Of a DNA stretch of 64,000 nucleotides, positions 1,753 to 59,283 are shown piece after piece. The position numbers and the translations under genes were made by a program. Each line of letters begins with the position of its first letter. The first letter of the stretch is position 1. The notes below the pieces were generated by a model. That model made no database searches, was not told the origin of the DNA, and saw only the letters and a program-made list of their open reading frames with translations. Source of the stretch: Rugalucina vietnamica (Eukaryota; Mollusca; Bivalvia; Lucinida; Lucinidae); contig OZ024882.1 of the NCBI GenBank assembly GCA_964017185.1, forward strand, positions 37,186,488 to 37,250,487. Reading direction: 5' to 3'.

Positions 1753-2351
1753 CAACAAATATGCGTATCTGATCAATGTTTCCAAACGCGTATGTTACAC
1801 AACACCAAAATGAAAGCGTTTCTGTGAATCAGCTCTAGTCACGTGGGTCATAGCAGTCGACAAAAAGACAACAAAACATCTTTTATAAATGAGGTTATTT
1901 CACTATTCTCTACTAACTGACAAGTTATGATAGTTTAATTGTCGTGAAGCCATCAACTGACATGGAAAAAGTACGTTTTGTTGACAATTTACCTTTAGGC
2001 GAGAATACGTCTGTTTAAAATATCTTGTTATCCCATAACTACTGTTTTAGTACCTATCATATAAGTGCAGAATTTCTTCATACCAAATTTGAATATAGAT
2101 CTCTTCTCATTTGTTGCAGCAGACAACTGCAGTGAATGCGATGTTTTCAATGAAAAATAAGTTAGCGCTTATCGAGAGCACAAGAGAAGTCTTTCTTGAG
2201 ATGCCAAACGAATTCCTCGACTCTTATACGAATATATAGCAGAAATGAATTATATAACAGGCATGATATTTACCTTGACAGCTTGAAGGCTTTTAAAAGG
2301 TGTGGAGAGGTATATTAATACTGAACACTCATATACATATATAGAGAGAGT
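1753..2351. other. No gene seen
   Basis: AT-rich sequence with a minus-strand TATAAA near 1883-1888, about 340 bp from the Reeler start. There are no ORFs with protein-like composition and no recognisable repeats. Confidence 0.5.
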
Positions 2352-2512
2352 GGGGGATTAAACCATTAACAGTGCAAGAATAAATCAAACTGAGCGCGCT
2401 TTCGGCTTTCGCCGTCTTCAGAGCTATCAATACATATTGACTCTGAAGAAGGCGAAAGCCGAAAGGGCGCTCAGTTTGACTTATTCTTGAACTGTTAATG
2501 GTTTAATCCCCC
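2352..2512. repeat. Large inverted repeat, 72-bp arms, hammerhead-like core in each arm
   Basis: Arm 1 (2352-2423) and arm 2 (2441-2512) are nearly perfect reverse complements around a 17-nt loop. Each arm, read outward from the loop, contains CTGAAGA, then a GGC-GAAA-GCC stem-loop, then GAAA. This resembles the catalytic core order of hammerhead ribozymes (CUGANGA, stem II, GAAA). Related CTGAAGA..GCCGAAA motifs are common beside Penelope-like and other retroelements. No conventional cleavage-site strand is obvious, so activity is doubtful. Confidence 0.6.
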
Positions 2513-3263
2513 TATATACTTATTTTCGTATTTTTTTTCGAATCCTTTCTTAGGATCCAGTGCTACCGGGAAGATTTTTGTTTGATGTTTGTCCTATTTC
2601 TCCCTGTATATATCAAATAAATAAGAATACTGGATATCGACACAATTTTTTATCTTCGGCTGACCGATTTCATGTTTTAAAATAATTTTCAAAGCCTTAA
2701 TTTGCAATTTAAACTATCTAGTAACAAGTAACGTAACAACGTTTCCTATGTTATATAAATATATAAATATGAACGGTTCAGAGCTACAGCAGATAAGACT
2801 GTACATGTTCAATATACCATTTCATGACAGCGTAACAGAGACAATATAGCCGTAATTACGTAAAAGAACTCTTGATATCTGGCCTTTCCACCATTTTTGT
2901 CTTTAAAAGGCCAATTCGTCGCGGAGATATTTAAACTATCAAGCATATATTATGTTTGTAGTGTCTACAAACATAATAATTCCATAAAAAATCCTTTAAT
3001 ATTACACTATGCATAACCGTACAGTGAGCCAAAACGGAAGTGGCGCATTTCCTGATAAGAGAATGCTGCCAGTATTTCATATTTTATCCTACGCTGAATA
3101 CAAACCGAGACGTGGTTTTCTAGTATTTTGTTGAAATATCAAACAATTATGATCCAATTTGAGTGGAGTGAAACAAATTACAAAATATGAATACGATAAA
3201 GCAGTAATTATATTAGGGCAGGTAGTCTACAAATCACTATCATTTAGTAGATGGCTACACATG
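2513..3263. other. No gene seen
   Basis: AT-rich intergenic sequence. It contains a short inverted pair around 2951-2978 (ATTATGTTTGTAG / CTACAAACATAAT) but nothing coding. Confidence 0.5.
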
Positions 3264-4201
3264 CACGAAGGGTGTTCAAAAAGTTCGCGGAAAAGTGTCA
3301 TCATATTCTTATTTTGTAAACCAGCGAATTAAACAGTTATATAGACAAACATGATTTGTACTTATACAGCAAATTTTGTTGCTCTGGCATGAATACAATG
3401 TTAACAGTGGTTGCTATGGAAACCGTATATCACGATTACCGGCCCACTTTTGTTCAATTTTGCCTAAAAGTCGATGTTTAATGATGACGTTGCATTTGAT
3501 AGTTTACCGTGCTTTTTTTACCAAACTTTGTATGAGCAAAGTTCAATGTGTTTGCGATGAGCACATGACGTCATATAGGTGTGTGACGTCATTTGGGCGT
3601 AAAACGACCATATTGTTTAGTGGGTATGCCTAAAATGCGAGACAACGGTATTCGATAAATTGTGTGTTTGGAACGGACTATAAAAGAAAGAAACACTGCT
3701 AAGAGCAGAAAGCGCATATGTCAACAAGGAAATTAAGAAAACGTAAATCAACAAGAAGTATGCATGATTTCTACACGACCAGAAAAACGTCCATGTCGAC
3801 TCGAGCAGCGTAACGTCAAATAACGTCATACTGTCGAAAATGATCGTCGTGATAGAAAAGAGTAGAATTCGTGAAATACACAACATATCGAATTGTAGTT
3901 TCGGCACAATTCACCGCATTATACACACATAACTGACAATCATAGACGCCCGTATGCCAGGTAGATTCAAAAAAATGCTTAAGAGCTAGCCAACAGCGGC
4001 ATTAATGCGTATAACATGACGTTGTTATGACGTTGGGTCGGTTTTACTGTTGTTACCTTAGAAACGCACGTGATTTAATGCCTAATTTTCATCCGAGTTT
4101 ATTCAAATTTTGTGCATATGTTAACTATATGTTAATTTACAACATGCACAGAGAACAAATTTGGCAGCACTTTTCCTCAAACTTTTTGAACCCCCTTCGT
4201 A
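3264..4201 (+). mobile_element. Degenerate mariner-like (Tc1/mariner) transposon
   Basis: The ends are inverted repeats: ACGAAGGGTGTTCAAAAAGT at the left (from 3264) and the complement of ACGAAGGGGGTTCAAAAAGT at the right (to 4201). Both continue into GGAAAAGTG. Between them, around 3825-3990 on the plus strand, broken frames spell a mariner-type N-terminal helix-turn-helix (FGTIHRIIH followed by DARMPGRFKK). At about 940 bp it is shorter than the usual 1.3 kb, with stops and deletions, so it is inactive. Two perfect CRE octamers (3566 and 3584) lie inside it. A homopolymer T/A run follows immediately. Confidence 0.72.
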
Positions 4202-4209
4202 TATCCTTT

Positions 4210-4262
<53 letters not shown>
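4210..4262. repeat. T-then-A homopolymer run
   Basis: A short T run passes directly into about 45 A residues just outside the mariner right end. Predicted Lys- or Phe-rich reading frames here are artefacts. Confidence 0.9.
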
Positions 4263-4265
<3 letters not shown>

Positions 4266-4724
4266 ATTCGTACAGACACGAAATGTGTTAAACTAACTAG
4301 TCGTACAGTTGTTGGCATCAGGGTGGCTGTTTTCAAAAGACAATTATTTACATGTTAGAATTTCTGTGCACAAATCGAGTAAAGGGTTTTCGTGATAATA
4401 TATAATATATGTCTGTTCTAGCACAAAAACTTTCCACAATGTGTATGATCAGAACATACTTTTCTAGGGGAAAATCTGTCGTACTTACGAGCGAAAAATA
4501 ATAAAAGTCAGTGATTTTGTGCATTAAATGCTGATTTGCAGAGAGATACATCTATAGTGTTCGGGTGTTTTGAAAGTCATGAATGAAAACTATGCTTAGT
4601 TCGCTTTTTATAACAGAAAGAACTTAGCCTGACGTGAAAAAATTTAGCATCTATGTTTATCGCGAGGAACTAGTGATATTATTTGCGTACAGTATGTGTC
4701 ACTTCCGTTTTGGCTGTCACTGTA

Positions 4725-4830
4725 CGGTTATACACAGTGAGGGCGGCAGTGTTAGGTCCAAGGTTCGACACCTACCTCCGAAGTGCATTGTCCTTCAGCA
4801 AGACACTTCAAGCTTCCCATAAAGCTTATA
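4725..4830 (+). mobile_element. SINE, 5' part, split by a transposon
   Basis: The sequence matches the intact SINE at 6915-7135 in order: a tRNA-like B-box region (AGGTTCGACACC), TGTCCTTCAGCAAGACACTT, then the stretch ending in TTATA. The SINE resumes at 7763 (CCTAGGAAGCAGTGACTCCATC), corresponding to CCCAGGAAATGGTAGCGACGTC in the intact copy. The DNA transposon at 4831-7762 lies exactly between the halves. Confidence 0.7.
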
Positions 4831-5624
4831 CAGTGGTGTTATGGCTAAAATCCCAATTTTGCACAGTTCGCGCTGATCACTTGTGATTTTTCGCGGCGAA
4901 ACCACCGCGAAATTTCACCGGCAAAGGGAAAATTTAAACGGTTAATCGGTTAATTTTTTCGCCGCGAAAATCCGATTTTCGCGGTGAAATTTCGCGGTGT
5001 TTCGCGGCGAAATTCGTTTTTTAACATTTACAACAGGTAAGTTAAAATTTCCTATTTCGCCGCGAAACACGGCGAAATAACTATAAATGTTAACAAAAAA
5101 TATTTATTTTTAATTTAATGACCACACTATGATTCATCTGTTCCTAGTATACATCGTGATTTACGTGCACATTAATAGTATGATTGTACAATTATGCATG
5201 TATAGAAATGAACAACGTGCATAATGCGACTTTTCCATTGGTATTACATGGTACGATAGCGAAATCACGGATAGACGAAAATATTTATAACGTAATGAGC
5301 CAGCTCGTTGAACCTAACTTTGTTTGTTTAATTAGATGCTTTACGTCCAAATCAACAGCAATGTTCATTTTTATTTTTTTTTATTTTTATTTTTTATTAT
5401 TAGAAATTTCATGACAACATATATACACATATTATACAGATTCAGATAAGGAATATTATAACATTTCTAAGCATATATAGGCGTCATAGGATCGGATGTA
5501 GGCAAGCCTGTATTTATCCTTTCCTAGGACCGGTACAGTAATGAGTATATTATAATATAGACATTTTCACGTGTAGTGTAATATGCCTTTATATACAACA
5601 TTTCATTTTAAGCATATTTTAAAA

Positions 5625-5700
5625 TGTTCATGTCGGGACGCTGCCTCCATTTTATGGGACGTCATGATATCCAACAAGTGTTTGAAATTTAACCATCCCT
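5625..5700 (+). repeat. Dispersed repeat copy ('CCTCCATTTTATGGGAC' family)
   Basis: The core GGGACGCTGCCTCCATTTTA followed by TGGGACGTCATGA is shared with copies near 20318, 60975 and 63472. It is probably a fragment of an interspersed tRNA-related retroposon (see 63472). Confidence 0.5.
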
Positions 5701-6914
5701 CTAACTATTTTATGTATGGATGGTTTAACTTGAAACTTTTTTCTTGGCAGGCACAGACCTGAGCGGTAAAACAAAAATCAGATGATCAGTCAATAGCGTA
5801 TAAGCTTTGCCTGAAGGCAGCCCATATATTTCTGTAGGTCCCAATGGGCAGGGGCCATCTAACTTTGTACCTTGTTTTGTAGCACAGACATTGTCTAAAG
5901 GGTATTGCTCAATTAACAGTTAGATTCCTTGCTTCGTTTTTAACAGTTTCCTCAATCGCTTCACTTTATAGCGTTTAAGATGTGAACTATGATAACTTAA
6001 GCTCAACCATGTAAAAACGACAAAACAAAAAGAGACATATTGACATTTGGGCTTGCTGGTTACCACTCTGATCACCTTCTATGAATGCCAGCACAAGACT
6101 TATCGCAATCATATCGATTTATACATTGTACTTGCCTTGTAAAAATACATCCTGAGTTCAGTTTAACAGTCAACAATGTTTGAGTCCCACGGCGACAACA
6201 CTTTCAGGGTAATGCACGTATACCGGTTTTGCTCAAGTACAAAACCCAACAAATATAGGAATCGAACACAGGACACTTTGTTTCCGGTCAATTCCTACAA
6301 TCAACCACTGGGCTTCTGCACTCAACTTTGTTCTGATTAATCTATTCGCCATCGATTTATGTGGCATGCGCTCATATTGCCACGGTGCATACTCGTGGCC
6401 CTTACTGTATATATGTGTCCCGAAATAAACTGAAAACTGCATATGACCCATTTCTTACACAAAGTTAGTGACAAGTATGAACTACAATACTTTATTTTAA
6501 ACACAGTATCCTCCCTTTTACTAGTGTATTGTGCCTTGTATACAATGAGATTTGACATTCAACATGCATGTACATGTTCCAAGCCATCCGTACATGTGGA
6601 TCTTGGAAGGCACATAACATGCTGTTTAACTCAAAACGGTTAGCAAAAGAACCCCGTCAATTATTGACAATGTCGACACAGTTGTGTAGATGTACGTTGC
6701 TGTACTGCTCGTATCCGATCGAATATCGTATCGACCCGGTGAAGGTCGTATGTCGTTTCGACTCAATTGATTTCAACGAAACGGCGTCCTATTGACGTAA
6801 TCGAAAATTCACTGGTGCTTTTAGCAGTGTCATTACCACAGGCGATTAAATATCTAAAGAAGAGTTGAAGCCGATTGCTTCATCATGTTGAATCCAAAGA
6901 CTTTGTATACATAT

Positions 6915-7135
6915 GTGGGTTTGGATCGCGGTGGCATAGTTGTAGTGCATCAGACTCCGAATCGAGAGGTCATGAGTTCGATCCGCACTGGCGACACCGT
7001 GTTGTGTCCTTGAGTAAGGCACATTAACTACCCACAGTACTACTTAATACCCAGGAAATGGTAGCGACGTCCAGACATGACTGAAAAATTGGTGACTTTG
7101 ACGTTCAGCCTCAATACAAACAAACAAGTCTGTGG
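6915..7135 (+). mobile_element. tRNA-derived SINE
   Basis: The head carries a split pol III promoter: an A-box-like GTGGCATAGTTGTAGTGCAT, then a B box inside GAGTTCGATCCGC. The body reads TGTGTCCTTGAGTAAGGCAC, CCCAGGAAATGGTAGCGACG and ATGACTGAAAAATTGGTGAC, and it ends in an A-rich CAAACAAACAA tail. The body is shared with the split SINE at 4725/7763. It sits inside the TA transposon. Confidence 0.68.
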
Positions 7136-49816: not shown

Positions 49817-51397
49817 AAGTGTGGTGGCCCAATTAATTGATATTAAGCGTGCTCAGTGAATCTGCCCGAGGGTGTGAAAGACGGTCGTTATAAAAACAAT
49901 CACGAAAATGACACCTGTATTAAAGACTGGTATTGTCATGTTATTGGATTTTGACGGATTATCGTATGAAGAGAACGTTCTTTAATTCATTGTAAATAAA
50001 ACCGATTCTCTGGGATCTTGGAATATTTTAAAAAAAAAGTTAAGCTGTATTCCACAGTTCAAATGTCTACTTATCAGTAACCCAATCACTGTTTATTATT
50101 GCATTAAATCAACAATGCCGAAAAATCTTTTACGTATAAAATTTGTTTAAACGTGCATGTTATAATTATATCATGGAACATATACCGCCGGTTCCTAATC
50201 AACTGACATCTTTCGAATTCCCTGAGCGTTCCTTAGGCAAGGGGAATCCTGTGAGTATGAGATTTCAGGCCTCATAGTTTTCGACCAGTACGTGGCTTCA
50301 TCATGTCCCAAAAATTGTCTCAAAGTGCATTAAAATCGTTTCTACGGACGTCCGGAAGTATAAAATTTTCTCGGGGGAGATCCCCCGAACCCCCCTTACG
50401 AGAGGGGGGAACGCCCCCTCTCGTGCTCTCCCCCTACTCGTGCCTTCGGCACTCGTGAACGTCTTTGACCTTTCATGGCCGGACCACTTTTCAAAAGCCG
50501 ACGACGGCCCTGAATATACAGGTATCATTATGCTAGTTCAAGTAGCTCTTTGCTAGTTTTAATCTTTTATATCTGAACATTTAATTGATAGACCAATATT
50601 TACATTTTTATTGCAATCGCCCTAGATGAAAGTATCTGTCTTGATGTTCTTCATTTCCCAATGAAAAACATTAAGTCACGTGATCTAGAGGCCACGCCTA
50701 TGGGCGGGCCGACGTCAAAACCCATCCAGTGACGTTGTTTGTTTACTCTTGTTGTTGTGACGTTGGTCGCGTATCGCCATGACGTTAGGCGCGAAAATTT
50801 GACGTTATGGCTGTTCCAAAATTACGTTAAGTGGGATTTAATGTCAAATAACATGAAAATGAACGGTGACTTGCGAAATTAAAAATCTGATACTTGATTG
50901 ATAATATAAAATGTAAATATAAGTATTGAAATTCAGATTTTAGCTTTCACTGGATGATGAAAAACATTAGCTGTTTTAATGTCTCCGAGAAGCCCTTCGG
51001 GCTTCACAGACATTAAAACAGCCTAATGGTTTTCATCATCCAGTGAAAGCTAAAATCTGAATTTCAATTCTTAAATAATCTGTAGTTACCTGTAAAATGC
51101 CTTCCAGCAGCAAGGCTGAAGAAGTCCCGGTGATACGTCCCAAAATTCCAGTTCACTTTTCATCGAAGAATGGCAAACATTTCGCGGAATATGCAGTTCT
51201 CCAGTTCGACATGCCTCAAGAACTGCAGCAAATATTTTTGGATTCCTATCAAAGAAAAACTCGCCACGTTCTTGGTTATAAAATTTTGTGCTTTTATCCA
51301 GCTTTGCAAGAATGGAATTTGGAAAACGTTGTAATGTACTAAAGTGGCTTTCAAATATTTTCCCGCCAATGTTGAATTTTACTATCTCTGTAGCCAT
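48113..51397 (-). CDS. Voltage-gated potassium channel, Shaw/Kv3-like (complete, three exons)
   Basis: Exons 51090-51397, 49334-49478 and 48113-48958, with GT..AG borders and agreeing phases, give 432 residues. Residues 1-100 form the T1/BTB tetramerisation domain (FNIGG..F, FFDRNP, CRTGELHIP). They include the HX5CX20CC zinc motif that marks non-Shaker (Kv2/3/4) subfamilies. S1 is at about 152-172, S2 at 220-242 (conserved Glu), S3 at 254-272, S4 at 290-308, S5 at 325-347, selectivity filter TTVGYGD at 368-374, S6 at 383-408. S4 keeps only R300, R303 and R306; the first three gating-charge positions read Q, V, Q. S6 reads AMPIGVI where Kv channels have AMPVPVI. NNSSS and NAT in the S1-S2 loop are glycosylation candidates. 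The C-terminus is very short. Kv3-like is my best reading; a modifier subunit is possible. Confidence 0.88.
49334..49478 (-). CDS. K+ channel exon 2 (T1-S1 linker)
   Basis: Acceptor CTGATTCCAG, donor CCAAG|GTTAGT. Encodes the linker ending KLWLFLDEPSSSRFAK, matching the Kv pre-S1 pattern LW.LFE.P.SS. Its first base completes an Arg codon from exon 1. Confidence 0.86.
49709..50511. mobile_element. hAT-like MITE in K+ channel intron 1
   Basis: The termini AGGCCGTCGTCGG and CCGACGACGGCCCT are inverted repeats, extended inward by CGGCCGGACCAC.(A/T)TTTTC in both. The flanks (AAATATCA and GAATATAC) look like a decayed 8-bp duplication. The interior has a T homopolymer (49769-49815) and nested small palindromes (CCCCCTCTCGT, GTGCCTTCGGCAC). 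Non-coding. Confidence 0.6.
50921..51072. repeat. Long near-perfect foldback hairpin beside a 5' splice site
   Basis: Two arms of about 74 bp (AAGTATTGAAATTCAGATTT.. and its complement) meet at GAAGCCC-TTC-GGGCTTC. Only a few mismatches are visible. Its edge lies 17 nt from the exon 1 donor of the K+ channel gene. It could be a foldback MITE. The arms are longer and more perfect than in animal miRNA precursors. Confidence 0.85.
51090..51397 (-). CDS. K+ channel exon 1 (T1 domain, start codon)
   Basis: Starts at ATG 51397 (MATEIVKFNIGG). Ends with CCWKAFY and two bases of an Arg codon, donor TACAG|GTAACT. Holds the whole T1 domain. Confidence 0.87.
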
Positions 51398-51885
51398 ACT
51401 AAAGACTGCTTACACTATGCCAGGCCTCAAGAGCATAATGTTTAAGTAATTCACGATTACATCAACTGAACCACAATCCAGTAGAGTTGTTATTCTAAAA
51501 TATTAGTTCTATATCTTCGAAGTACTTTATACATATACGATTTGGTTCCGATTTACTTTATAATTAGTATATTAACTTTTAGCCTTTTGTCTGTAAGCTT
51601 GTAAGCATTTAAGACTCTTAATACAAATAATTACAAGTATAACAGTTCGCCCTGTTCGACACATGATATACGTATCAAACACGTACGAATTATACATGTC
51701 TGTACCAGGATTTAATGTAATTGCTTTTGTATACTTGCTCCCGCTCAAGACACCAACGTCATTTATTTAAACATCGCAAACCCGATTGATTGTCGCCAAA
51801 ACTAAGATGGGACATGAAAAGCACAACAACGTAATATGTAAATAAGATATTCTTTTTCACAATATAAACGATACTTTGATTGCGA
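51398..51885. other. K+ channel upstream region
   Basis: About 490 bp between the channel start codon and the large transposon. AT-rich, with no clear TATA or CpG island. The channel's promoter must lie here or across the transposon. Confidence 0.45.
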
Positions 51886-52044
51886 ACCAGGCTGCAATCT
51901 GATTAAAACCAGATGTTTCACAGTAACATCTGACAGTCATCGATCGTAGGTCATCTTCAGTGACCCAGGAAAATCCGAAAATTCTATTTTTAGGCGAACA
52001 AATCAAATCGCTCGTTGCAAACTCAGTTCGGTTAACGTATCAAA

Positions 52045-52348
52045 ATGGCGGCGGTTGTTAAAAATTTGAGTGAAGCGGTTGATTCCGTCCTTAAAAACGT
52101 GAATTTGTCGAAACTGAAGCAACACCAGCTTGAACTACTGGATCTTTTGGTGCAAGGGAAAGATTGTGTCGGAATATTGCCTACTGGATATGGCAAATCG
52201 CTTCCGTACCAACTGTATTTGCCGGTAAAACGTGAAATGGCTGGACAGTGTGACGAAAAGATCATTGTGTGTTGCCCGTTAGTGTCGTTAATGAACGACC
52301 AAGTTAAGCGTTTAGAAGCTATGGGTCAAGTTAAACCAGGATATAAAG
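52045..52348 (+). pseudogene. RecQ-like helicase, exon 1
   Basis: Starts MAAVVKNLSEAVDSVLKNVN and carries helicase motif I (GILPTGYGKSLPYQL, Walker A at about residues 46-52) and motif Ia (CCPLVSLMNDQV). RecQ helicases unwind DNA 3' to 5' with ATP. A donor AAAG|GTTTGT follows. The short leader puts the start about 150 bp from the transposon's left end. Bivalve and cnidarian genomes hold many such RecQ-like proteins. Exon 2 continues it in phase at 56090; lobe 2 of the helicase is missing, so the gene is broken as a whole. Confidence 0.82.
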
Positions 52349-52611
52349 GTTTGTTAAGCTACCTCATTTCTTTAATATGAAATAAAGGCACACTGCCTTA
52401 GCCGCAAACACACACGCTAAACTTTTTGCTAGAAACTTTGTTGATTAACTTAATTTAACCGTTACCGTCATCGTCAAGTGAAGTATTGTCAATTTGGTGT
52501 GACACCAGTAAACCATTCAGACTCAGTGTCTATCCAGCTGTCCAATGGGAGAATACCAGACTATTTTGATTTGATTTAAAGGAGATAGTTCTCAGCTCCC
52601 TGCTCCCTACT

Positions 52612-53622
52612 TGTAGGTAGGTGGGTGGATGTAGGTGGGTTGGTTGATAGATGTAGGCAGGTAGGTAAGACTGGTTGGTAGGTGGTAGGTTGGAGGGTGG
52701 AGGAAGACAGTTAGGTGGTTGGATGGGGGAAGGTGGGGGTGGATGAGTGGAGGTAGGTAAGTAGGTGGTAGGTAGCTAGGTAGTTCGGGGTGGAAGTACG
52801 TGGAAGGTAGGTGGGTGGTAGATGTAGGTAGATTAGTAAGGTATGTAGGTAGGTGAGTGGGTTGAGATAGATAGGTAGGTAGGTGGGTGGGGTAGGTAGG
52901 TGGGTGTGTGGGTGGAGGTAGGTAGGTAGGTAGGTCGGAAAATAGGTAGCTGGATTGATGAATGGGTGGTAGGTGTAGGTAGTTATATAGATAGGTGGAT
53001 GGGTGGGGTGGGTAGGTAGGTAGTTAGGTGGGTGTGTGAGTGGAGGTAGGTAGGTAGGTAGGTCGGAAGATAGGTAGCTGGGTGTGATGGATGGGGGGTA
53101 GGTGTAGGTAGGTAGGTAGGTTGGTTGGTTGGTAGGTAGGTAGGTAGGTAGGTAGGTAGGTAGGTAGGTAGGTAGGTAGGTAGGCAAGTAGGTGGGTGGA
53201 TGGATGGATGTAGGTAGGTAGGAAGGTGGTAAGGTAGGTTAGTTGGTTGGTAGGTAGGTAGGTGAGTAGGTAGAAATGAAGATGGGTTGGTAGAGGTAGG
53301 TATTTATGTAGGTAGGTGGTATGAAGGCAGGTAGGTGGATATGTGGGTGGAGAAAGGCGGGTTGGGTTTGTTGATAGGTAGGTATGTAGGTTGATGAGTG
53401 GCTGGAGTTGGGTGGATGGAGGTAGGTAGGTGGATGGGTATTTGGGTGGAGGTAGGTAGGTAGATAGTAGTTGGGTGGATGTAGGTGAGTGGAGGTAGGT
53501 TGTCGTGTGTGTGTGTGTGTGTGTGGGTGGATGTAAGTAGGTAGGTAGATAGCAGGTGGGTGGGTGGGTGGGTGGAGGTAGGTCGGTGGGTGGGTGGCAG
53601 GGTGTATGTAGGTAGGTATACA
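52612..53622. repeat. 1-kb GGTA/GGTG simple-repeat tract
   Basis: Variants of (GTAG)n with GGTGG and GGATG interruptions, and a (GT)n patch near 53508-53525. It lies in the RecQ-like intron. All Pro/Thr/Tyr-rich frames here are repeat artefacts. Confidence 0.95.
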
Positions 53623-53689
53623 AAAGGAATGTAAACTTTTTTTTATCAAAGATTGAAAAAGGTATAAATAATTTGGCTAAAAACCCCAA

Positions 53690-54345
53690 ACAAGAGGGTT
53701 TGGTGTGTCCTAGTGAAGGGTCTCCGACTAAAAGCCGAAACGACTGATGGGACCGAAACGACACGTTGGGTATCTGACAGGTCGAAACTACTAATGGGGC
53801 CGATACGACCTGTTACAGATGTTTGGAGTGTTCGAATCGAGAGAGAAACGATTCGCGCCCGAAACGTCCTTTTGTGGCTCGGTTTGCTCGGCCCGAACCT
53901 GCTGGAAAAAAACTACGGTAACCCCATTGTCGCCGCCAGGTAGCGCTGTAAGCACTGACCTGTCGCCTTTGACGCTTGGCTTCTGGGATTTTCCGCCATT
54001 GCGGCCATATTTTCCGCCATAATTAGAGTACAGACATTCATTTTATAATTAGGAATTGAAGGTATTTTGTAAGTTTCTCTTCCGATATGTATTGTGTTAC
54101 CAAGATAAATATAAACATATGTTTTGGAAAAAAAAATATTAACTTAGATAAGGTTTTAGATAAGGTATCGTCTGATCTCATGAACACGGGATTAGCCGAT
54201 TTTGGCTATATCCCATAATTCAAAGCGTTAAATGCGAGAGATATCGATCTAGATGAGGTCTCGTCAGATCTCGCGAGAATGCGGTAAACCGTGTTACATA
54301 GAGACAAGAGATCGTCGTCTGAATTTGTAAATTTTGCTTTTAATA
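53690..54345. other. Intron sequence with GAAACGAC-type short repeats
   Basis: 53740-53820 repeats GAAACGACTGATGGGACC and GAAACTACTAATGGGGCC-like units. 54150-54285 has two diverged copies of TAGAT.AGGT.TCGTC.GATCTC. No coding function seen. A TTG microsatellite follows at about 54516-54540. Confidence 0.5.
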
Positions 54346-54879
54346 TTTTTTAACAGTTTTGTAAACAAATTTGATCTGAAATAGGACCGATGGAAGTACG
54401 TTTCACAAAGAAAAATGTATAGTCAAGAAAAGAAAAAATTTCCCGACATCTGAATTGTCGACGAAAATGGCCGTCCACAGCCTTACCCTTCCGGTTTAAA
54501 CGATTCGCTTTATTGTTGTTGTTGTTGTTGTTGTTGTTCTTATGTACACATGTAATCTTAAAGCAAACACATGTGTGTTTGCTATAAATTATACTTTCAC
54601 TAGCACACAACTTTTAGTTGTTGTTTATCATTTTGGCATATTGCTGCCTATCAGCACTCTGTGCTTTTTATACTCATCTGTACTTAAGTCATGTGTACAC
54701 TCAAACTGAAACTTATCCCTGTAAGAACAGTTTTTATCATCATATTACATTATCCTTCCTGAACAAACATCATCAGTGACATCTTTTCTGTCTGTGTTTA
54801 TCGCCGTGGGTTTATACGTGGTCATACAGTGCTTAGAGATCGCAAGCGTTTTGAAAACGCTTAATATACTTGTGTTTTT

Positions 54880-54892
54880 TATTGTCTTTTTT

Positions 54893-54924
<32 letters not shown>

Positions 54925-54931
54925 TTTTTTA
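54880..54931. repeat. T-rich homopolymer tract
   Basis: Runs of T broken by single G residues in the RecQ-like intron. No other feature in 54600-55480. Confidence 0.85.
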
Positions 54932-55480
54932 TACAAATATACAGGCCAGTTACTCCTGGATTCTACCAGAGTGGACTTATCACACGTATATGCTGGTTTT
55001 CTGATGTGTAGGTTCAAGATTCTAATAATCCACAAACAAATCCTAATACCTCGGTTTATTTGTTTATGATGATGTACAATGACATGCACAAATTATACAA
55101 AATTATATTCAACCCATTCCTTACAGAATTACAGGGAACAACTCGTAAAATCATTATGTAAACATGTCCATAAAATATGCAGCTGTAAAATAATGAAAAT
55201 TTTCAGGTGAAAAAAAATTTGAATATTTACTTATTTTTGCATTGAGGCAGTTCTTACTAGTATCCACAATCTTTGATTTAGAGCAAAAATAAGAATAATT
55301 GGTATACCCTAGTAGACCCCAGTTGACATTTTATCATGATGTACATTGTGCAGTATAATAACAAAAAAAAGACAATCTTGTACATGTACATAACAATAGA
55401 GAAAACAGTGTTTTAATATTTTAAAATATCAGCTTGAACACATAACCTGTGTATCACAAAAATCTTCCTGGAAAATGTAT

Positions 55481-55977
55481 GATATAGAGGATATTTACTT
55501 TTTTGAGGTGAATACCAAATATGTTTCAGCAAGTGAATTGAAAACATAAGAATTTTCACGAGTGAAAATTTAGATGTTTTCAACTCACAAGATGAAATAT
55601 ATTTGGTATTCACCGATAAAAAGTAAATTTTCTTTTTATTTTATACAATACATGGCATTTTCCCATTCTCAAGGAAGGCGGGGGAAATGCAAAAACCCAA
55701 AATTTTTGAAATGATAAATAATTTAGGTACCACAGTGTTCCTTACATTCTAACTAAGAAAATGAATACCCACACTTTATGCTTTCGTTCATAAATAACAG
55801 AGTTATTGACGTTTGAATTTCTGAAGTGAGGCATATTTCATGACATCAAGTGAATGGAAACGTCAGAAGTAATCCAAAATCTACAATGAAAATATCAGCT
55901 GATATTAATCACTAGTGAAAACATCAATATCAATTCTACAGTGAACATATCACTTTTATTCATAAAAGTATAAAATA
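55481..55977 (-). mobile_element. Family C non-autonomous element, inverted copy
   Basis: Reverse-orientation relative of 29706-30285: GATATAGAGGATATTTACTT, GAGGTGAATACCAAATATG, TTTTCACGAGTGAAAA, ATACCCACACTTTATGCTTT, to TTTATTCATAAAAGTATAAA. Diverged by roughly a tenth to a fifth by eye. Confidence 0.62.
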
Positions 55978-56089
55978 AACATAGGATATGTGTTCGAACT
56001 GATAGGATTATATGTGTATTCGAAAATGCTGTTTTGGGTAACATCTTGCAGGTCCTTCAATGAATTATGACATACTTTTTTCTCTCTAG

Positions 56090-56249
56090 GATGTGATCCT
56101 GATACAGATCAGAAGATTACCGAGGGCAACATTGATATTATTTTTGCATCACCAGAATCGCTTGTTGGAGATGTACAGTTTCGAGCACAACTTCAAACCC
56201 TGAATGTGTCATTGATAGTTATAGATGAGTTCCATACGATTATGACCTG
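56090..56249 (+). pseudogene. RecQ-like helicase, exon 2
   Basis: Acceptor TTTCTCTCTAG, then CDPDTDQKITEGNIDIIFAS, PESL, and the DEAH-box position VIDEFHTIMTW, ending ACCTG|GTGAGC. The DEFH box is the variant common in these invertebrate RecQ-like proteins. Phase agrees with exon 1. The next in-frame partner is absent. Confidence 0.78.
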
Positions 56250-56757
56250 GTGAGCAATAATTGTAAACATAACAAAACTGTGCAAAGTGAAAAATAAATA
56301 ATGACCAGGAACTGACACAATCAAAATTCCGCCCTAAAAACCTAGGTGGGATAAAACAAAAAAGCACAGATAGGTACAGATACAAAGAGAACATATCATC
56401 ACGAAGATATATCCATGTAATGTATACCCCCTCATACCCTACACTGGGGGTTTGCAGGGGTATACCTGGTTTTCTTAATTTTGATCCAAAACACAGATTA
56501 TGGGTACACGTTAGAACCGGCGGTTCTAATGTTTACCCACAATCAATGTTTTGAGTTAAAATATCAAGTTCTATATAACGAAATTTTCAATTTTTACAGC
56601 TGAAAAAAAAATTAATGTATATTGCATGGGCAAGTTTTCATAATGTTACGGTAAGATTAGTGAGCAGCTATTTCCCCGAAAGGTGGCTACTCAGTTAACC
56701 AAACTTAAATTTATATATCATGAGGTGCAAACGGTATAAGACATTATTAAAACTAAA

Positions 56758-57030
56758 GAATGTAGAAGACAGTCCATTCTGAACCACTTTTTAAGTTCTT
56801 CAGAGCTGAAGGCACTAAAATCAGACATAAAACATACTTGTTGTGATTTGTGCACTGAAATATGTGATTGTGGCCATTGCACTGATCTCCCCCTTGAGAA
56901 AATGTTGCAACTTGAAAATGTTGTTTCTTCAGACAGTGAAGTAGATAGCTCAAGTGATACAATTTCATACACTTTTGAAGATGAAATTGTATCACTTGAG
57001 CTATCAGATTTGGAATTGGATCAAGAATAA
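56758..57030 (+). pseudogene. RecQ-like helicase, C-terminal cysteine segment
   Basis: The open segment reads CRRQSILNHFL, then HTCCDLCTEICDCGHC, then an acidic tail ending SDLELDQE and TAA. CRR..L..F plus a CC-C-C cysteine cluster is the RecQ zinc-binding region in this family. Splicing from exon 2 directly to it would be out of frame, and helicase motifs IV-VI are nowhere between, so the middle exons were lost. The N-terminal boundary of this exon is a guess. Confidence 0.6.
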
Positions 57031-57102
57031 AAGTGCCAAATTTTAGTCTTTTGCTGTCTTAGGAATGCCCAATTCATTTGTTTTGTTTTTAACATCCTGA
57101 AC

Positions 57103-57310
57103 CCAGTTGTTCAAAGCTAATGGCATTGCTAGTAAATGTTTTGTTGAAATTTCAAACAAATATTGCAAACACTGTCATTTTTTGTTGCACAATTCTCACA
57201 TTTTTGCAAAAACAAATTACAGTGTATTTGTATCTATAGCTGAAATTCACTCTAATAACAAATTTTGATATTAACAACATCATTAAGCTAACAATGCTTT
57301 GAACAACTGG
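57103..57310. mobile_element. MITE with CCAGTTGTTCAAAGC termini
   Basis: CCAGTTGTTCAAAGCTAATG at the left and its complement (TTAGCTAACAATGCTTTGAA, CAACTGG) at the right. About 208 bp, non-coding, just downstream of the RecQ-like stop. Confidence 0.7.
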
Positions 57311-57531
57311 ACCCTGGTCAACAATTTTTCAGTCATGTTGGGACCTGTGCATCCAATACATGTATATCTGCACAATGCCTTTATTTTGTGCTCAGTGGGT
57401 GGTTTAAAATTAACGTGGACAGCTGCGAAAAGGCAGATCAGACTGGCCAAATGAGCAGGTTGATCTGAGCATTTGCTGGCTGCACATACTAATTGTAGGA
57501 AATGTCATGCTCTGCTCAATACACAGAACAG

Positions 57532-57744
57532 GCCCCAACGTTATAAAACTTTTTTTCATGCTCAGCATAGCTGAGACTAAAATTTATCCTGCTCAATTGT
57601 TGGCATTTTAACATTTATTAGCAGAATAAATTACATATTTTGGTATTCTAAACCTGAAATTTCTAATTATTTGGGTATTTATGAGCAGTTTAAATTTCAT
57701 GCTCAGCTGAGTTGAGCATGAAAAAACTTTAATAACGTTGGGGC
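57532..57744. mobile_element. MITE with GCCCCAACGTTATAAA termini
   Basis: GCCCCAACGTTATAAAACTT, then TTTCATGCTCAGC at the left; the complement (GCTCAGCTGAGTTGAGCATG, AAAAAACTTTAATAACGTTG) at the right. About 213 bp, non-coding. Confidence 0.75.
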
Positions 57745-58049
57745 AGGTGAGGACTAAAAAAGTTTATCAATTGACAGAAGTGAATCTATTAAAAATAAAC
57801 ACCTGTTACAACACAGAGAAATGTTACTTGTGCACCATCTGAAGTCATATGAGCCAGGACACGAGAAACCCAATTTTGTGGCCTTTGACCATTTCTGATA
57901 CAAGATGGACTGTAAAGACACAGAGATTAGCTAGAAGCTTGAAATTTCAGATTTAGAAAGAAGGCTTGTATTATCTATGGAGCGAAAACAAAAGCGCTGA
58001 TCAGCTTCGCATACAGATTGTTGGTTTTCTCATGACTTGGCTCATATAA

Positions 58050-59184
58050 TTACACATGCTTGTTTCGCAGTCTTCTAAATGGCAACAATGGTTTGTGCCT
58101 GTAAATCATTGTAGACAACTGAATGTGACTGCCATGAAAGGGGTTTGGATGCTGCACTATATCACGTGCATGCAGAGACCGACCAGGATGAACAGTGAAG
58201 GCATCGATCCGTAACAAATCATTAATTACTTTTGCAACATCTGATTTGTATGATGGAATTTTATGGAATCCTTTCCTCCTTGATACAGCACATATCACGT
58301 CCATGTTTTTCACTGCATTCATTAGATGTGGGTATTCTTTTGAGTGGCGTATAATGCTTTCCTTTGTTTGATGCCCTGAACATGTGTCCTTCGTATCTCT
58401 GTTCAAAATTTCAACAAATTCATCTAATGCAATGTTATTGTTTTTGCCACCACTGATGTTTATGAATCTGTTTGAAATTAGCCGTTCTCTAAGGGACAAG
58501 GGTAATGTTAAACACAAACCAGTTAAATGGACACTTCCAATTAAATACTTCACCTTATTTGTTCGGTTGTATATTGGTGTTTCATATTTTGCTGACCTGA
58601 CACTTCTTCTTCCATCTGCCATGTCAACTGCTGAGTCTAGGTTCTTATGAAGGGCCACCATGCGAAACAAGCATATCAGGTAATCCAATAGCTCATCTTT
58701 GTCTGAACTTTCTGGTTTGGACTTTTTCTTGGACTCCTCAACTGCTATTCCATGTTTCAGTTTTTCATGAGCCTTTAGTGTCCCAATGAATTTGTAACTT
58801 TTGTCACACAGATGACACTTAAAACGGCCTTCAATGGCTGTGTTCACCCAATAATTTTCATCATGTACAGGGTCACACAATACGACGTAGCTCTTCGACT
58901 ATGTCCTGACTATCATCAAAAAACCACTTCTTCACAATATTTCTGATTATGTTATTAAGCCAACTTATTTTCACACCATTATCCCATGTTGAAAGATCAC
59001 TTGGTAGATTGACTATCTGATCAATACTGTTAATGTTGAGATGTTTGTAAAAAAGCACACAGCAGATCCCATCAAACACTGTGTAATACAGATGTTTGTG
59101 CGCCCTGTAGGAGTTCTTTACGTCACCTTTAACATTTCTAGCGTTGAGGAGATTTCTGTTATTGTGTAGAAATGTAAATAACAT
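58050..59184 (-). pseudogene. DUF6589-like protein, C-terminal part, one frameshift
   Basis: The first part (59184-58873) reads ARNVKGDVKNSYRAHKHLYY, then LSTWDNGVKISWLNNIIRNI. The second (58880-58050) reads CDPVHDENYWVNTAIEGRF, a C2H2 zinc finger (CHLC..H..KH), then YLIGSVHLTG, SGGKNNNIALDEFVEILNRD, MIYRHKPLLPFRRLRNKHV. The order and wording match, from memory, the large DUF6589 family of marine invertebrates and fungi. The two parts are separated by a single frameshift near 58875. The N-terminal several hundred residues are missing: an intron-acceptor-like CAATAACAG lies next to the transposon end. It is possibly the element's transposase, but its catalytic residues cannot be identified here. 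Confidence 0.7.
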
Positions 59185-59283
59185 CGGATTTTAATCAGAT
59201 TGACCAGGCTGTACAGTTACAGGACAAAGCTAGAAGCTTGAAACTTTGGATATAAGTAGAAGAGGAATTGTACTATCCGAGTG

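Follow-up and report, generated by a model that had tools for sequence, protein, structure and literature searches.

The present study concerns a 64,000-nucleotide stretch of the genome of the lucinid bivalve Rugalucina vietnamica (assembly GCA_964017185.1, contig OZ024882.1, positions 37,186,488 to 37,250,487 of the forward strand; hereafter the window), in which a 7308-bp element (51895-59202) holds parts of a gene for a RecQ-family helicase and of a gene for a DUF6589 protein. The element starts with 5'-CA and is flanked on both sides by ACCAGGCTG, an exact 9-bp target-site duplication (TSD), a match that is expected by chance at given ends about once in 262,144 cases (4^-9). Its two ends form a terminal inverted repeat of 23 nt, 21 of which are paired (91% complementary). 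A previous reading of this DNA from its letters alone (the sequence-only reading) had placed the duplications and inverted ends correctly to the base, and the RecQ-like gene, which it began about 150 bp within the left end, starts with an ATG at 52045, 150 bp in. The features are collected in Table 1.

When the left 521 bp of the element were used as a query against the genome (1.09 Gb in 47 contigs; the window lies on contig C14), 22 matches were obtained: six to left ends including that of the window, three to right ends, and 13, all short, to an insert in intron 1 of the helicase gene. A left end was paired with a right end at three other loci, on C1 (16,305 bp), C13 (16,433 bp), and C15 (17,178 bp), and these copies were 97.2-99.1% identical in pairwise comparisons with gap columns excluded. 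Duplications of 9-10 bp, which the sequence-only reading had suggested looking for at other copies, were exact on C1 (GCTTTTTTC, 9 bp) and C13 (ACCTTCACAT, 10 bp), and no exact TSD was present at the ends of the C15 copy. The inverted repeat spans 84 bp at 81% identity in all three, of which the 23 bp in the window represent a shortened form. The left end of the C15 copy is tandemly doubled, with the two versions 39 bp apart (near 520-600 of locus L009), and its last transposase exons are partly doubled. The left ends on C5 (31.85 Mb) and C11 (28.46 Mb) had no right end in the stretches examined and were excluded from TSD counts.

In the intact element, the helicase gene reads from the left end and a separate DUF6589 gene reads convergently from the right end, and both are spliced. 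The exon models were built on splice-like sites and homology, with the end of transposase exon 1 being uncertain, and the three helicase and six transposase exons thus modelled were free of stop codons in all three full-length copies. In a Pfam scan of the intact C13 exons, the helicase matched DEAD (5.9e-19) and Helicase_C (3.4e-18), with RecQ_Zn_bind scoring under the cut-off; the last transposase exon matched DUF6589 (1.5e-15). The helicase model comprises 468 amino acids (aa), and its best match among solved chains was WRN, followed by RecQ.

In comparison with the C1 copy, the window copy lacks two stretches. One, of 2.4 kb, contains the initial two thirds of helicase exon 3; the other, of 8.7 kb, extends from within the last modelled transposase exon up to the right end and holds modelled exons 1-5. 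Helicase exons 1 and 2 remain open, and exon 3 is reduced to residues 214-313 of 313. Of the six modelled transposase exons, five are gone and the last is represented by residues 22-390 of 390, split between two frames with a junction near 58880. By eye, the deletion junctions show microhomology of a few bases at most. The window copy has also acquired an insert of 2.2 kb in intron 1 of the helicase gene, at a site where the C1 copy carries a different 220-bp insert with inverted ends. Two further inverted repeats were observed in the helicase gene of the window, one in the second part of intron 1 (55482-55639; 78-nt arms, 81% complementary, 2-nt spacing) and a perfect 25-nt repeat with a 12-nt loop within the coding part of the last exon (56944-57005).

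As judged from these alignments, the window copy is unable to produce either protein whole and is an internally deleted, non-autonomous derivative of a 16-17 kb element; that element is very probably an AcademH-like DNA transposon in which a RecQ-family helicase and a DUF6589 DDE protein are encoded tail to tail. The sequence-only reading had described a 7.3-kb two-gene transposon, and its joining of the RecQ-like and DUF6589 genes in one element stands; both genes are mere remnants in the window copy, and the DUF6589 sequence reading inward from the right end, taken as a gene, is a 3' remnant placed there by the 8.7-kb deletion.

A genome search with the ends, which had been suggested as a check, recovered gene-less derivatives in addition to the full-length two-gene copies. 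A 23-bp pattern of the ends, two mismatches being allowed, gave 95 and 100 matches on the two strands (195 in total) and none on either strand for the reversed control. Among the matches listed, 36 close pairs and four single matches were read, and all 40 represented short elements of 73-98 bp. Thirty-one of these 36 pairs lay in A-rich surroundings, 29 of which visibly shared the same right flank, and each of the three longer pieces inspected belonged to a single carrier repeat that extended past both sides with near-identical flanks. A control revealed that mismatched pairs in A-rich flanks also give exact repeats. The A-rich-flank derivatives, which spread as passengers of the carrier repeat, were dropped as evidence of transposition. 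The derivative carried in this way is 87 bp long and is embedded in another, A-rich repeat, along with which it has spread.

The other nine of the 40 derivatives lie in unique surroundings; six of them had exact TSDs (five of 9 bp and one of 10 bp), two had imperfect TSDs over 10 bp, and one had none. Copies of the ends devoid of both genes and of duplications had been named in the sequence-only reading as evidence that would speak against it; gene-less copies do exist, and six of these nine carry exact duplications of 9-10 bp. Since two of these six measure 80 bp, approximately 40 bp of each end seems to be sufficient for mobilisation.

The pairing of the two genes extends well beyond this family. 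Searches of the genome gave at least 73 matches for DUF6589 and at least 92 for the helicase, which were clustered at 15 kb into 62 and 51 places, respectively. A helicase place was found within 15 kb of 31 of the 62 DUF6589 places, and the two genes were convergent in all 31. When places were distributed at random in 1000 runs, with contigs of unspecified extent set at 45 Mb, the number linked averaged 0.126 and never exceeded three. DNA identity among 30 DUF6589 loci resolved eight groups of near-identical copies (92.6-100%), one of which is the family of the window. Another of these groups is a divergent sister family, which shares 27% identity with the window family in the last transposase exon. 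Its ends are TAGACTGG, and the TSDs were exact over 9 bp in all three copies for which both ends were read (CAATGTCGC, TTGGAGGGA, and GAAGTTTTA); a fourth copy (C5, 60.47 Mb), the right end of which lay outside the stretch examined, was left out of this count. Because the pair recurs convergently across divergent families, the label of cargo, which the sequence-only reading had given to both genes, is the wrong word, and on this comparative evidence they are probably the machinery of the element.

Database relatives of the window-family protein (among named rows) are mostly from bivalves, with Haliotis and Patella in addition, a distribution in keeping with a mollusc as the host, and most are named as uncharacterised host proteins. 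Relatives of the sister family come from, among others, bivalves, Haliotis, and the hemichordate Ptychodera. A possible distant relative is an intact 1664-aa frame on C5 (57.48 Mb; 2032-7026 of locus L099, minus strand), which occurs in five near-equal matches and has a DUF6589 score just below the cut-off. By eye, its C-terminal part resembles a PIN/XPG-type nuclease followed by a Cys-rich tail, a likeness without Pfam support, and an hhalign comparison of A3 with this weak relative gave no match.

Regarding the division of labour between the two proteins, the DUF6589 protein would bind the terminal 40 bp or so at either end, cut at the ends, and join them to target DNA with a stagger of 9-10 bp, and the helicase may assist by unwinding DNA in end processing, strand transfer, or gap repair. 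Proteins of intact copies would move the tiny derivatives in trans, and likewise the window copy if its deletion preceded insertion. The helicase may instead be a captured passenger without a role in transposition, the DUF6589 protein alone moving the element. This passenger role appears unlikely to us, but two observations weigh in its favour: half of the DUF6589 clusters have no helicase within 15 kb (31 DUF6589 and 20 helicase places are unlinked), and derivatives without either gene carry exact TSDs. However, many of the places without a partner are fragmentary or match only weakly, gene-less derivatives may be moved in trans, the helicase exons are open in all three full-length copies, and every linked place is convergent.

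The proposal in the sequence-only reading that the DUF6589 protein is the probable transposase agrees with the genome-wide linkage, the predicted fold, and the conserved acids, and we also regard it as the probable transposase. The protein has a Cys-rich segment at its N-terminus, a C2H2-like finger, and a core predicted to be RNase H-like and of the DDE type, in which the acids D205, D357, and E674 are conserved. The best matches of the predicted fold were DDE transposases, with weak scores, and the nearest solved folds were the P element, hAT (Hermes), ISCth4, and RAG1 recombinases, with which the model appears to share an RNase H-like core and, from a reading of its secondary structure, a long helical insertion ahead of the last acid. 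A second structure model, of a divergent relative, was not used, its mean pLDDT being 70 with values below 50 in the last-acid region and at the strands next to the two Asp motifs. A sequence search of solved structures with the transposase profile returned only 12 marginal matches, chiefly zinc fingers, and a full-text search of a library of openly licensed PubMed Central papers found no mention of DUF6589.

Going by the title of Kojima's 2020 report, AcademH is said to be a helicase-encoding lineage of Academ in animals and fungi. In PMC10045372, AcademH is assigned a TSD of 9 or 10 bp, as against 3 or 4 bp for AcademX. The present element is likewise a helicase-encoding DNA transposon, with exact TSDs of 9 or 10 bp in three of the four long copies, six of the nine short derivatives in unique surroundings, and three of the three sister-family copies, and the AcademH assignment of the sequence-only reading can be retained in the softer form AcademH-like, a name drawn from TSD length and the helicase. 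If the name is right, AcademX is a sister lineage that differs in having a nuclease instead of a helicase and shorter TSDs (PMC10045372). We also considered linkage to XPG as a sign of Academ kinship within the genome, which received no support: none of the three XPG_I matches lay within 15 kb of a DUF6589 match. In bivalves, an amplification of Academ elements has been reported, with consensus sequences averaging 5565 bp (PMC10294476), in comparison with which the full-length element of 16-17 kb is long.

It is also conceivable, and in our view quite improbable, that the element belongs to another DDE superfamily, Kolobok-like or Kyakuja-Dileera-Zisupton (KDZ)-like, that gained a RecQ helicase independently, given that the RNase H-like fold is common to many superfamilies. 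Kolobok elements duplicate TTAA, whereas the TSDs of the present element are 9-10 bp and vary in sequence. In KolobokH and Kolobok-1_CCri, a RecQ helicase is found next to the DDE transposase, on the complementary strand in the latter (PMC9587614). The present element likewise has a RecQ helicase beside its probable transposase, and the helicase is a separate convergent gene. The 5'-CA start is shared with Kyakuja elements, but the TSDs quoted for KDZ families are 7-8 bp (PMC12730594), in contrast to the 9-10 bp found here and assigned to AcademH (PMC10045372). Pfam scans of the proteins returned no transposase family besides DUF6589, the other matches being zinc fingers or marginal, and the missing KDZ match leaves distant kinship possible. 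That two host genes merely lie between chance repeats, as the chiefly host-protein labels of the database relatives might suggest, is scarcely credible and was rejected on account of the 195 end matches against none in the reversed control and the full-length copies on other contigs with TSDs of their own. In viral_contigs, 27 stretches matched a pattern, and no viral carrier was confirmed.

A wider proposal, which we consider possible and advance tentatively, is that DUF6589 as a whole represents an AcademH-like transposase family that forms a convergent pair with a RecQ-like helicase acting in the transposition reaction, with approximately 40 bp per end being enough for mobilisation. If so, many of the genes assigned to the host as DUF6589 or RecQ-like, in molluscs and beyond, would belong to transposons, and what a helicase does for a DDE transposase could be tested directly with an 80-bp mini-element. 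The AcademH-like kind is already known; the newer point is the tie between DUF6589 and its transposase, which suggests a likely role for a domain of unknown function the genes of which move together with those of RecQ-like helicases within one genome. Since intact copies, derivatives, and sister families occur in the same genome, genes catalogued as belonging to the host can form part of mobile DNA, and such genes may be removed from host gene sets in annotation. The full-length copies with 97-99% identity and the 80-bp derivatives with exact duplications provide a defined test system and make it testable why a helicase and 9-10 bp duplications are found with some DNA transposons.

Table 1. 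Features of the element and its flanks in the window.
Feature	Position	Strand	Basis
Left target-site duplication, ACCAGGCTG	51886..51894		Flank comparison
Left terminal inverted repeat, 23 bp (84 bp in three full-length copies)	51895..51917	+	Inverted-repeat pair
RecQ-like helicase exon 1, open, 101 aa	52045..52347	+	Exon model; DEAD in Pfam scan
2.2-kb insertion in helicase intron 1, not in other copies; AGGT-type repeat array	52375..54582		Copy alignment
RecQ-like helicase exon 2, open, 53 aa, terminates at DEFH box	56092..56250	+	Exon model
Helicase exon 3 remnant, residues 214-313 of 313, one internal stop in aligned part; 2.4-kb deletion immediately before	56728..57027	+	
Remnant of last modelled exon of DUF6589 transposase, residues 114-390 of 390	58053..58883	-	Exon model; PF20231
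Same DUF6589 exon, residues 22-115, other frame; 8.7-kb deletion (modelled exons 1-5) between remnant and right end	58876..59157	-	
Right terminal inverted repeat, 23 bp	59180..59202	-	Inverted-repeat pair
Right target-site duplication, ACCAGGCTG	59203..59211		Flank comparison

Just to the left of the element, a 107-aa frame on the minus strand (51086-51409) shows, by eye, a likeness to the BTB/T1 domain of a potassium-channel tetramerisation protein.
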